From a bacterium (GTDB lineage Bacteria; JAJVIF01; JAGGVT01), in NCBI GenBank assembly GCA_021157815.1, contig JAGGVT010000139.1, forward strand, positions 1 through 11,769: DNA of 11,769 nucleotides. Direction: 5' to 3'. Below, piece by piece: positions 4,083-8,349 of this stretch. The translations under genes and the position numbers were made by a program. Below the pieces are notes generated by a model. It saw only the letters and a list, made by a program, of their open reading frames with translations, did not search any database and was not told the origin of the DNA. The stretch's first letter is position 1. Every line of letters starts with the position of its first letter.

Positions 4083-4261
4083 CCTGGGAGCGCTGGTCTC
4101 TGACCGGCATCTGAGCAGGTTAACTTGAAATGAAAAAAGGGAATCTTTCGAGCATGGTTGATAAACTAAACTTTTTTCTTTTGGTATGTTGTCTGTTAGA
4201 TATACTCTGTTGATTTCTATTTACCTTGTCCAGGTGCCGGTCAGAGACCAGCGCTCCCAGG
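4083..4261. repeat. 179-bp element with perfect 27-bp terminal inverted repeats
   Basis: Positions 4083-4109 and 4235-4261 are exact reverse complements over 27 bp and enclose 125 bp with no reading frame. Each arm contains its own small hairpin, GCTGGTC-TCT-GACCGGC. I see no target-site duplication. The structure fits a MITE or REP pair. It occupies most of the 284-nt gap between two convergent genes and could end transcription from both sides. The rest of the gap is AT-rich and apparently empty. Confidence 0.85.
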
Positions 4262-4316: not shown

Positions 4317-5255
4317 CTATTTCCTTTGCGTCAAAGCTCGAAGGAACGCCTTGTGATGCGCTAAAATGGGAGCGACCCGCTTTTTCCTGCCACTGGGAAA
4401 CCAGCCGGTTACTGTCAGATAAACAATCTTCAACGCGCTTGCAACTACATTAGCCGTAAGATAAAGGTTGCACAATCCCGGTGGATAATGCAGTTTGAAA
4501 AACCGTTTTGCGCTTGAGACAAATATCTCCATTTTCTTATACGGTATTTCACTGAATGACTGCCCCTCGAAATGATGCACTACCGCGTTGGGAATGTACA
4601 TCACACGGTAACCTTTCGATTTCAACCGGATGCACCAGTCTGTTTCCTCAAAGTAAGCGAAGTAATTCTCATCAAGCTGCCCGACTGCGTTCCAGATATC
4701 TCGTTTAGTCATCAGGCATGCGCCTGAAACGTAATCGACATCAAACGGAGCGGTAATGCTGTCATCCGGCGCGATTCCCAGCCCTCCCGATTTAGGATTC
4801 TGAAATCGTCTCGGCATGAAAGCATCCGCGAGTATTCCCCTGGTAGTGGGAAACCATCCGAACGATACGGTATTATCGCCATTAGCATCGATTAGCCTCG
4901 GGCCAATCGCACCGTAATCATCGTTTTGCCTTATCTGTTCAATCAGAATATCAAGAGCGCCATCGGTAACTTTCGTATCCGGGTTTAAAAGGAGAATCAG
5001 TTCACTATCAGTTTCAGCAATCGCCTTGTTGTTGCCGGCGGCGAATCCGAGGTTATCCCGCGATTCAATAAAGCGAAAATTATCATCGCCCGACACGGCA
5101 TCCATAGCCTGTTTAAGGCTGTCATCGCTTGAATCGTTATCGATAACAACAGCGTTCCAGCTGACTGACGGCGGAAACTCCCTCAACGAGAAAAGCGTCT
5201 GCGCGAGGTAATTTCCGGAGTTGTAATTGACTATGATTATTGACAGTTCAGGCAT
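4317..5255 (-). CDS. Glycosyltransferase family 2 (rhamnosyltransferase-like)
   Basis: 312-aa GT-A fold enzyme, expected to move a sugar from a nucleotide-sugar to a growing glycan at the cytoplasmic face. Visible motifs in order: SIIIVNYNSG (5-14) and VVIDNDSSDDS (36-46) for nucleotide binding; NLGFAAGNNKAI (68-79); LLLNPDTKV (88-96), the metal-binding DXD-equivalent; SGACLMTKRDIW (177-188); and FAYFEETDWCIRLKSKGYRV (199-218) with the likely catalytic acidic residues, followed by HH at 227-228. This order is typical of the WbbL/rhamnosyltransferase group, but the sugar cannot be read from sequence. A hydrophobic stretch near 264-284 may touch the membrane. It is the last gene of the polysaccharide operon. 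The ATG at 5253-5255 lies on the junction of an insertion, with AT from the insert and G from the duplicated target, and has only a poor ribosome site. Confidence 0.92.
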   Translation of the reverse strand: MPELSIIIVNYNSGNYLAQTLFSLREFPPSVSWNAVVIDNDSSDDSLKQAMDAVSGDDNFRFIESRDNLGFAAGNNKAIAETDSELILLLNPDTKVTDGALDILIEQIRQNDDYGAIGPRLIDANGDNTVSFGWFPTTRGILADAFMPRRFQNPKSGGLGIAPDDSITAPFDVDYVSGACLMTKRDIWNAVGQLDENYFAYFEETDWCIRLKSKGYRVMYIPNAVVHHFEGQSFSEIPYKKMEIFVSSAKRFFKLHYPPGLCNLYLTANVVASALKIVYLTVTGWFPSGRKKRVAPILAHHKAFLRALTQRK

Positions 5256-5399
5256 TTGTTTTCTGCTCGTAACTTGTTACTGGTAACTTGTTACTCGTAA
5301 CCCGGCGTCCCTTCGCCGGGGTTTATGCGTAAATTAGCCACTGTATTTCCCGGTTAATGAGAAACCGGGCTACAATCTATGATTATTGACAGTTCAGGC
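5231..5399. mobile_element. 123-bp palindromic insertion flanked by a 23-bp direct duplication
   Basis: Positions 5231-5253 and 5377-5399 are identical over 23 bp and enclose 5254-5376. The insert contains GTAACTTGTTAC twice (5269-5280, 5283-5294) plus GTAAC (5297-5301), a hairpin CCCGGCG/CGCCGGGG with flanking AACC/GGTT (about 5298-5322), and a hairpin CCCGGTT/AACCGGG (5349-5355, 5363-5369) with outer TAGCC/GGCTA arms. It has no coding capacity. The duplicated stretch is the first codons of the glycosyltransferase, and the upstream copy now covers the stop codon of the ligase-like gene. Removing the insert and one copy restores an in-frame overlapping start, so a real insertion is the simplest reading. 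Confidence 0.7.
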
Positions 5400-5407
5400 G
5401 TCAGCAT
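5354..5407 (-). pseudogene. 17-codon remnant of the original glycosyltransferase start
   Basis: Reading ATGCTGACGCCTGA from 5407 gives MLTPELSIIIDCSPVSH and then TAA. Residues 4-10 (PELSIII) match residues 2-8 of the intact glycosyltransferase, after which the frame enters the insert and stops. It overlaps the end of the ligase-like gene by 14 nt. It probably marks the ancestral start codon. It might still be translated as a short leader, but nothing shows that. Confidence 0.5.
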
Positions 5408-6908
5408 TCTCCGCTGATTTGCGCTCCGCGAAAATTAAAATCGCGAAAATGAAACTGACAAAGATAATCCCCTGTACAGCCGCGATAACATTATTCGTTA
5501 TCGCAATTGGCAGTATTCCAATCATCGAGGCGGATGTCCCCGCGAGCATGGCTTGCAAAAGAGTCGGCGAGCCGCGCATCTGTGTTTTGAGCGAGATGAA
5601 ATATCGCGCGAATAATACAAAAAGGAAAATCAGCCCTATGATTCCGAATTTCAATACAAACCACAGGTAACCGTTATGAACGTACGGCTCCTCCGATGCT
5701 GAAACGTAAGTGAACATGCGCTTTTTGGTCTGCTTGCCGGGACCGAATCCAATAATAGGCGATTCTGAGATATTCTCCAGCACCATGTCGGTTTCCAGCA
5801 TCCTGTATTTTAATGATCCCTGCGATATCGCTCCGGCGCCGGATTTGCCGCCCTCTGTTGTTCGTGATCCAATTAACTTGAATCCAATCATTGCCATTTT
5901 CGGGCTTATCGCAAAAAGCAGAAGGCAGAATACCGAAACATAAACCAGCTGCCGTTTGATTTGCGCCAGATACAAAACACGATTCTCTTTTGGCAGAAGG
6001 AAATAAAGGGCGATAACGGCAAAGAAAACTTGCAGCATAGCGCCGCGCGAAAGGCAGAGAACGGTTCGTACGCTGAACAGAAAGATGATTAACGGATAAT
6101 ATTTTTCCAGTATGGAACGTTTTTCAGGATAATTAACCGAAAGAATCGCCAGCATCAACGGGATGAAAGGCGCGTATATATCGCTTGAGCCCTGGATGAA
6201 TCGAAGCAGTGACATGAAAAACATTATCTGCGTGTACAAATGCTGTTGAAAGAAAAGCCCGATTAGAAATACCCATTGAAGAAGGCTGAAAATAATCAGG
6301 AAATTAAACAGGGAGCGAAAATCCTGCGCCGATTTAAACGACCTTGCAGCGAAAATTCCGAATGTGTATAGCATTATCACATGCAGGTCATTGAGGATTG
6401 TCAGTGGAAAATGCTCATTCGCGATTGCTAGCGCTGTCCATGAGATACAGAACAGAAGAAAAGCTATTAACATTCCCTCAAATTTGGTAATGGCATATCG
6501 TTTTGTGCCGAGCCATTCACGTGCGATGAATCCCAACAGATATGATGTAAACAGCACAACCAGCGGTACAACCAGCAGTCCGCGGTCATCGATCACAAAG
6601 GAAATCGTGTAATCGAGGCCTATCATCGATGGCGCAATCGCCATCAGGTTAATGTAAATCACAAGGACATAGGCTGTTTCAGCGCCGTAAATAACATACA
6701 GGCCATATTTGGGAGAGAAAAACGCGATTACCACAAGCGCGATAAAAACAATCGCAAAAGCTAGTTTAACAGGTCCAAGAAACATCATGCCGCCGGTGAG
6801 AATCAGCAAACCAACAGCAAGAAGAATCCAATCAGTGATTAACAGTTTTCGGTGAATTGGCAGTGTAGGGTCTGGAGGATTTATTTCAGTACCGCTATCC
6901 CTCATCAT
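5394..6908 (-). CDS. O-antigen ligase / Wzy-type polymerase-like membrane protein
   Basis: 504-aa inner-membrane protein with about ten to twelve hydrophobic segments, close to the usual 400-500 aa of the family. The diagnostic part is a large periplasmic loop (about 345-412) containing SLKYRMLETDMVLENISESPIIGFGPG-type sequence (365-391) and ending in the conserved VHNGYL (410-415), followed by more helices. His411 and the basic residues R369 and R288 (in LSRGAML) fit the arginine/histidine positions thought to handle the undecaprenyl-linked glycan. Such enzymes either polymerise repeat units (Wzy) or transfer the chain to an acceptor (WaaL); sequence alone rarely separates them. The ATG at 6908 overlaps the previous gene by 14 nt (TAG at 6895-6897), implying coupled translation; a second ATG follows directly. 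Confidence 0.85.
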   Translation of the reverse strand: MMRDSGTEINPPDPTLPIHRKLLITDWILLAVGLLILTGGMMFLGPVKLAFAIVFIALVVIAFFSPKYGLYVIYGAETAYVLVIYINLMAIAPSMIGLDYTISFVIDDRGLLVVPLVVLFTSYLLGFIAREWLGTKRYAITKFEGMLIAFLLFCISWTALAIANEHFPLTILNDLHVIMLYTFGIFAARSFKSAQDFRSLFNFLIIFSLLQWVFLIGLFFQQHLYTQIMFFMSLLRFIQGSSDIYAPFIPLMLAILSVNYPEKRSILEKYYPLIIFLFSVRTVLCLSRGAMLQVFFAVIALYFLLPKENRVLYLAQIKRQLVYVSVFCLLLFAISPKMAMIGFKLIGSRTTEGGKSGAGAISQGSLKYRMLETDMVLENISESPIIGFGPGKQTKKRMFTYVSASEEPYVHNGYLWFVLKFGIIGLIFLFVLFARYFISLKTQMRGSPTLLQAMLAGTSASMIGILPIAITNNVIAAVQGIIFVSFIFAILIFAERKSAENADA

Positions 6909-8349
6909 CTTTGTATGCCAGGCTGCCTTTTTCCAGATAGAAGGATTGCATTAGCAGGAAAGCGAAAGCAAGAATCGCGAAGCCGATAGAATAAGGCATC
7001 TTTCGAGGCCGTGCCGGGCGATTTTCCCTGACCGCCGGGTCAAGAATTTGGAAAGTTGTTTCAGGGCGGTCCTCCGCGAGAAGCGCCTGTTCATGTTCCT
7101 GCATTAGAAGCGTGTAAACCTCTTCATAGACATTCTGGTCGCGAAGCAGCCTCAGGAGTTTCGCTTCATTTTCAGGATAGGATGCCATCTTCTTTTCGAT
7201 ATCCTGAACAATGCTGGTGATAACATCCCGTTTCGCTTCAAAAGCCAGTTTTTCAATATCAAGGGACAAAACCGCGCTTGAAGTGTAGTTTTTTAATTCC
7301 ACAAAGAGCATTCGTTTGGCATCGTAAATTCGTTTTGTCAGCGCGATTAAATCTGGATGATCATCCGTAAACAACAGCCTTTTATGTTCGAGTTCAAGTG
7401 TAAGTTCACCGATATCTTTTCGCAGGCGCGCGATGCTGTCATCCTGCAACGCCTCAACCGCGGGAACTCTGTCCAGAATCACACCGTTGTCATATAGCGT
7501 GATAATCGGATCCTCCGCAATTTGCGAAAGGTCGAAAATATCCCTGCGAGGCACGTTTTCAACAATATATCGCGCCAGATCATCCTTCTCATCGTTGAGC
7601 AGTTTATGTTTTGTAGCGGCTTCGATGAACTCCATTTCAGCCTGTGATAAATCAAGCTGAAGCTGAGAATATGTTTTAATCATCTCGACCGCCTGATCAT
7701 CGACCGCGAGGATTTTACTCTCCTCTTTGAAATCACGCACTTCATCATCAGCTTTGTTCATCTTCACTTCGATAAACTCAATCCTTGAATTTAGGAAAGT
7801 GCTGATGAAATGAGCGTTTTCCTGGTTTAATTCCTCCAGGGCGGTTTGCATTTCAGCGACAAGATTATTCGCAAGCTGCGCGGCGATATCCGGATCTCCC
7901 CAGTAAACACTGACAAGGAGAAAACCATCCATGCTGTCGTCGATTTTAACAAATTTGTTGAATTTCTTCACGAGACGGCCTTCATCAAGAGTGCCGCCTT
8001 TATCCAGTTTCTCGCGAACTCCCGGTACGCTGTCGATGACCCTTAAGAGAACTCTACGGCTTTTCATAACCGGAATATTATTGTACGCGCTGGCTGAGCC
8101 TCCGAGAATGCCTCCAAGGCCGCCGAGTGGGATGTCCAGACTTCCAAGCGTTCGCTTAATCGCAAGTGATGATTTCTGGAGAGGGTAGATTATCCCAACC
8201 GAACTGCGCCATTTTTTCTGCATCGGGGGGATTCCAAGCGTACACCAAATGAACATCAGAAAAAAGGCGATCAAAGTTCCAACGATTATCCGAACCTTGT
8301 GCTTTGCGAAAACACTGAAGTAACTCATATATTGAACGTCATTTTCCAT
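6895..8349 (-). CDS. Polysaccharide co-polymerase / chain-length determinant (Wzz-GNVR type)
   Basis: 484 aa. It sets the length of, or helps export, surface polysaccharide as an oligomeric inner-membrane protein with a large periplasmic domain. Membrane helix 1 is at about 19-38; then comes the Wzz beta/alpha domain with a Gly-rich stretch (DIPLGGLGGILGG, 72-84). Long coiled coils run at about 165-260 and 300-430, including FTDDHPDLIAL (327-337). The GNVR-like segment LLRLLRDQNVYEEVYTLLM (398-416) follows, then the proline-rich lead-in ENRPARPRKMPY (442-453) and membrane helix 2 (about 453-471). It ends about 13 residues later, so no fused tyrosine kinase is present. The first gene of its operon. 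An in-frame ATG at 8328 is an alternative start; neither has a clear ribosome site. Confidence 0.9.
   Translation of the reverse strand: MENDVQYMSYFSVFAKHKVRIIVGTLIAFFLMFIWCTLGIPPMQKKWRSSVGIIYPLQKSSLAIKRTLGSLDIPLGGLGGILGGSASAYNNIPVMKSRRVLLRVIDSVPGVREKLDKGGTLDEGRLVKKFNKFVKIDDSMDGFLLVSVYWGDPDIAAQLANNLVAEMQTALEELNQENAHFISTFLNSRIEFIEVKMNKADDEVRDFKEESKILAVDDQAVEMIKTYSQLQLDLSQAEMEFIEAATKHKLLNDEKDDLARYIVENVPRRDIFDLSQIAEDPIITLYDNGVILDRVPAVEALQDDSIARLRKDIGELTLELEHKRLLFTDDHPDLIALTKRIYDAKRMLFVELKNYTSSAVLSLDIEKLAFEAKRDVITSIVQDIEKKMASYPENEAKLLRLLRDQNVYEEVYTLLMQEHEQALLAEDRPETTFQILDPAVRENRPARPRKMPYSIGFAILAFAFLLMQSFYLEKGSLAYKDDEG

Follow-up and report, generated by a model that had tools for sequence, protein, structure and literature searches.

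A REPIN between 23-bp direct repeats at a probable former gene overlap in a bacterial polysaccharide operon

In the window, an 11,769-nt stretch of bacterial DNA, the genes of a family 2 glycosyltransferase (GT) and a Wzy_C/O-antigen ligase family protein (ligase-like gene) are separated by an insert that is flanked by a 23-bp direct duplication. The core of the insert is a REPIN/BIME made of two inverted GTAR-tagged REP hairpins, and the best reading of the locus is a target-duplicating insertion into an overlapping gene pair, which would have created a new start codon. Taking all the evidence together, it is probable that the REPIN entered the GT/ligase overlap along with adjoining array DNA and that 23 bp of the target were duplicated as a one-off. 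The features concerned are compiled in Table 1.

Table 1. Features of the insert and of the surrounding genes (positions in the window)
Feature	Position	Strand	Remarks
Glycosyltransferase family 2 (GT)	4317–5255	-	312 aa counted from the new ATG
Left copy of the 23-bp duplication	5231–5253	-	Present GT coding sequence: G of the new ATG, then P-E-L-S-I-I-I; perfect repeat
Insert	5254–5376		123 bp, between the 23-bp copies
Stretch without recognised family	5254–5265		12 bp; on the minus strand, its last two bases are the AT of the new GT start codon
Array of 14-bp units (CTCGTAACTTGTTA)	5266–5301		2.6 units; runs into the REP edge; single copy in the genome
Complete REPIN	5297–5373		77 bp; two inverted REPs, tags outward; one of the 58 genome hits
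REP hairpin GTAACCCGGCGTCCCTTCGCCGGGG	5297–5321	+	
REP hairpin GTAGCCCGGTTTCTCATTAACCGGG	5349–5373	-	Inverted relative to the first REP
Old GT start and 17-codon remnant (MLTPELSIIIDCSPVSH)	5354–5407	-	Remnant stop at 5356–5354
Right copy of the 23-bp duplication	5377–5399	-	Contains the ligase-like stop codon (5396–5394); perfect repeat
Wzy_C/O-antigen ligase family protein (ligase-like gene)	5394–6908	-	
Polysaccharide chain-length-determinant-like protein	6895–8349	-	14-nt overlap with the ligase-like gene

The two copies of the 23-bp repeat (CTATGATTATTGACAGTTCAGGC) are identical without a mismatch, and their positions and that of the insert agree with those given in an earlier note on this DNA. 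A repeat of this length has an expectation of ~1e-6 in a random 11.8-kb sequence. The same note had named the 23-bp repeat without the insert elsewhere as evidence that would speak against its reading; a search of the whole assembly (3.2 Mb, metagenome-type, 221 contigs), allowing up to 3 mismatches, gave zero occurrences beyond the two sites in the window. Being confined to these two sites, the 23-mer represents a duplicated target, and its assignment as a part of the REPIN was rejected. Furthermore, both the ligase-like gene and the GT gene continue naturally from the duplicated stretch, which makes the reconstruction of the empty site convincing. Computational joining of the flanks yielded ...GGAGAATGCTGACGCCTGAACTGTC..., with a translation opening MLTPELSIIIVNYNSG... 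in a 314-aa frame that has a terminal stop only. The GT gene so rebuilt starts ATGCTGACGCCTGA and shares its first 14 nt with the end of the ligase-like gene, an overlap as long as that found one gene upstream (ligase-like and chain-length-determinant ORFs). In the present sequence, the GT ATG (5255–5253) is composite, its AT belonging to the insert and its G to the 23-bp repeat. The earlier note had proposed that removal of the insert and one repeat copy restores an overlapping GT start, that the upstream gene pair has an equal overlap, that the present ATG spans the insert junction, and that the old start now opens a 17-codon remnant, and all four points were borne out. Its central proposal, an insertion that split an overlapping gene pair and made a new start, holds as the best reading, on the grounds that the 23 bp are unique and continuous into both genes and that the insert is a dispersed repeat; the parts that did not hold concern the repeat itself, which is an element of a known kind, and the bearing of the duplication on its mechanism, as described below. 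We infer the ancestral gene overlap and the order of events, and the empty site is predicted to be an uninterrupted ATGCTGACGCCTGAACTGTCAATAATCATAGTCAATTAC. Relatives were compared by a GTDB protein scan and in 59 relative genomes, the nearest of which belong to the same class and none to the same genus. The GT homologues found there have identities of at most ~38%, and the ligase-like protein, compared by tblastn with the loci around these homologues, matched nothing outside the window's own locus.

The palindrome-rich segment of the earlier note turned out to be a REPIN/BIME with abundant relatives and a RAYT gene bordered by similar REPs. BLAST of the insert against its own genome, a check proposed in that note, gave 58 hits, nearly all to the right-hand 80 bp, in both orientations and with diverged identity; the best match is 90% over 79 bp, and the genome yielded no identical donor for the insert. 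The window copy is located between two ORFs. The family copies have a common build consisting of a GTAG/GTAA-tagged hairpin, a ~25-bp spacer, and a second inverse hairpin, 75–80 bp in all as a GTAR...YTAC unit, and nearly all of 28 distinct doublets (inverted REPs at fixed spacing) fall within this length. Both REPs of the insert are imperfect palindromes within the 20–40 bp class and are tagged with GTAG or a close variant. This two-hairpin, inverse-orientation anatomy is that of REPINs (PMC3116915); GTAG-tagged REPs so arranged have also been termed an HH dimer (PMC3733652). The REPIN family was not found in three genomes of the same class. RAYTs are Y1 HUH transposases, and nine Y1-transposase matches are present in the window's genome. 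A RAYT gene of 172 aa on contig C182 (L037:1357–1875, minus strand) scores 135.6 bits against NF047646, the NCBIfam entry for REP-associated tyrosine transposase (cut-off, 80 bits), and is directly bordered at both ends by REPs of the insert's type (1305–1329 and within 1898–2111 of L037). The REPIN is a non-autonomous repeat, most likely dispersed by a RAYT, for which the product of this gene is the candidate. In the same region (L037:1305–2180), the DNA downstream of the RAYT 5′ end contains REPs and then a diverged second copy of the 3′ end of the RAYT gene, suggesting a past local duplication of REP plus RAYT DNA.

On one side, the insert extends past the REPIN by 43 bp, made up of the 12-bp stretch and the 14-bp-unit array, and the inserted unit is therefore not a clean REPIN. 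No second copy of the array was found in the genome; having GTAAC in common with the REP edge, it looks like a product of slippage from that edge. Other REPINs in the genome also adjoin simple arrays, with a unit different from that in the window, and arrays of TTAGTAAGTTAGCAGG-like units directly adjoin several of them (L002, L003, L007, L012, and L024). Neither junction of the insert shares microhomology with the native or displaced neighbours, and both are blunt. The junction at 5376/5377 falls at the REPIN edge, 3 nt beyond the terminal GTAG, and the other is 43 bp past the opposite REP.

Several further repeats were observed in the window. A second REPIN-like family is represented at 1616–1694 (GTAGGGGCGCCGCTTGCTGCG...CGCAGCAAGCGGCGCCCCTAC; 25 genome hits), and an element of 179 bp, whose inverted ends are imperfect and 64 nt long (GGGAGCGCTGGTCTCTGACCGGCA), is located between two genes at 4083–4261, its end sequence also being found beside the REPIN in L009. 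Palindromes of the type TCCCCCCGCGAGCGGGGGGA and their relatives occupy both contig ends (92–212 and 11494–11769), the right end has a 145-bp tandem unit, and the contig breaks fall within the TCCCCCCGCGAGCGGGGGGA-type repeat.

Whether the duplication is a trait of the repeat was assessed from the longest exact word common to the two 150-bp flanks of a copy, relative to mismatched flank pairs (median, 7; 99th percentile, 11–13), for 33 copies of the window's family (family 1) and 12 of the second (family 2), a subset of all copies and with exact words only, so that decayed duplications could escape. Six of the 33 family-1 copies have common words of at least 14 bp. Five of these six are explained by neighbouring REPINs or repeated units (C163, C117, and C82) or by simple TAACTTACTAACC arrays (C213 and C218), and the window copy is the sole REPIN that stands alone and has unique sequence in its long duplication. 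The 12 family-2 copies showed no flanking duplications, and no target-site duplication of constant length was seen across the other lone REPIN copies tested. A regular 23-bp target-site duplication of the REPIN family was accordingly rejected. The comparison of flanking duplications proposed in the earlier note thus singles out the window copy. Since the long duplication is missing from the other copies tested, it is not characteristic of the insertion mechanism of the repeat, and the earlier suggestion of an unusual mechanism is not supported as a trait of the family. In the literature on REPINs together with target-site duplication, we found no report of such a duplication made by REPIN insertion. 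Duplicated units of flank plus REPIN occur elsewhere in the genome, namely a repeated 28-bp flank in C117 and tandem REPINs in C163.

In the history that we consider probable, a REPIN with some adjoining array DNA would have entered the stretch in which the start of the GT gene lay within the end of the ligase-like gene, in an event that duplicated 23 bp of the target. The right copy would have preserved the stop codon of the ligase-like gene, and the left copy the conserved ELSIIIVNYN start of the GT protein, while the AT|G junction would have supplied the new ATG, so that the GT would have lost two N-terminal residues (MP in place of MLTP). For the duplication itself, a one-off event of repair or replication is probable, which may have been the fill-in of a widely staggered break or a partial tandem amplification of flank plus REPIN. 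The blunt junctions without microhomology are more in keeping with a filled-in staggered break than with template switching, a choice that sequence alone cannot decide. Against this history count the failure to find an identical donor copy in the genome, the occurrence of the array at this place alone, and the extra 43 bp beyond the REPIN. A duplication-free insertion into the overlap would have hurt one of the genes, and a duplicating one would have been tolerated. It may be that the rare duplicating event is seen at this copy and not at others because it was the only kind tolerated here, being retained by selection. The site appears to be a clear case of a mobile repeat entering a gene overlap without destroying either gene, the overlap being duplicated and a start codon formed at the junction. 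It also offers one REPIN insertion whose position is anchored and whose empty site can be predicted, for an insertion step that has not been worked out.

Alternatively, the locus might be the remnant of a tandem amplification, in which a REPIN at the border was amplified with its 23-bp flank and one REPIN copy was later lost. Tandem units of REPIN plus flank are present in the window's genome (C117, C82, and C163) and have been described in Pseudomonas fluorescens (PMC3116915) and in GTAG families (PMC3733652). This route is nevertheless unlikely, as two steps are required and a REPIN present at first on one side only of the 23 bp would have cut the GT at III|VNYN or removed the ligase-like stop codon. 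Still less favoured, and quite improbable, is a 23-bp target-site duplication made by RAYT-catalysed REPIN insertion itself, with those of the other copies lost by decay. One junction coincides with the REPIN edge, and both are blunt without microhomology, like those of target-site duplications; on the other hand, the 33 family-1 and 12 family-2 copies included no other lone REPIN with a unique-sequence duplication near 23 bp, and single-strand transposition of the IS200/IS605 type is not known to leave a target duplication. That RAYT-dependent REPIN insertion can at least sometimes use a ~23-nt staggered cut duplicating the target is, in our estimation, very doubtful; if true, such a cut would be a physical signature for the poorly understood insertion step.

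It is also conceivable that the spacer with its hairpins was kept for regulation, through mRNA stabilisation or attenuation between the ligase-like gene and the GT gene, or through uncoupling of translation. The insert folds better than shuffled sequences (z = -3.7), and mRNA stabilisation and transcription termination are roles that have been proposed for REPs and BIMEs (PMC3733652). The insert, however, is a repeat of a generic, dispersed sort whose conservation at this site is not demonstrable, and we regard a regulatory role as quite improbable. An assembly artefact at the repeat is extremely improbable: although contig ends of this assembly do fall at repeats (C117, C82, and the palindromes at either end of the window), both flanks belong to one operon with both frames kept, the 23-mer is unique, and a misjoin through a REPIN would not yield a matching duplication.

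Among known systems, the insert resembles a classical MITE in being a short non-autonomous element between direct repeats of its target, but 23 bp is far above the usual length of a target-site duplication and the insert has no mutual inverted repeats at its outer ends. It begins ATTTGTTTTCTG and ends GGGCTACAAT, its only inverted repeats being the inner REPs and the GTAAC/GTTAC array; lacking terminal inverted repeats, and with no target-site duplication of constant length in the other lone copies, it does not fit a classical MITE. Inverted ends GACCTCTGAAAA/TTTTCAGAGGTC enclose a complete REPIN in a MITE-like element observed at L150:1128–1255, L151:976–1103, and L159:978–1105, with apparent 6–7-bp target duplications (CCTGAT, CATCTAG, and CCATAC); this is a REPIN riding in a classical MITE and a different element from the window insert. 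Tandem REPIN clusters with repeated flanks (PMC3116915 and PMC3733652) are similar in that flank DNA is repeated along with the repeat, whereas a single REPIN lies between the flank copies in the window. The closest likeness is to GTAG-tagged REPINs/BIMEs with a RAYT: the 77-bp core has inverted palindromes with GTAG/GTAA tags outside, and the genome has many diverged copies and a cognate RAYT bordered by REPs. Unlike these, the window copy carries 43 bp of extra sequence on one side and the 23-bp flanking duplication, the latter missing in other copies, and its host stands outside the well-studied Pseudomonas and enterobacterial cases. The REPIN element itself is ordinary and of a known kind; what is unusual is the long duplication, a single case.
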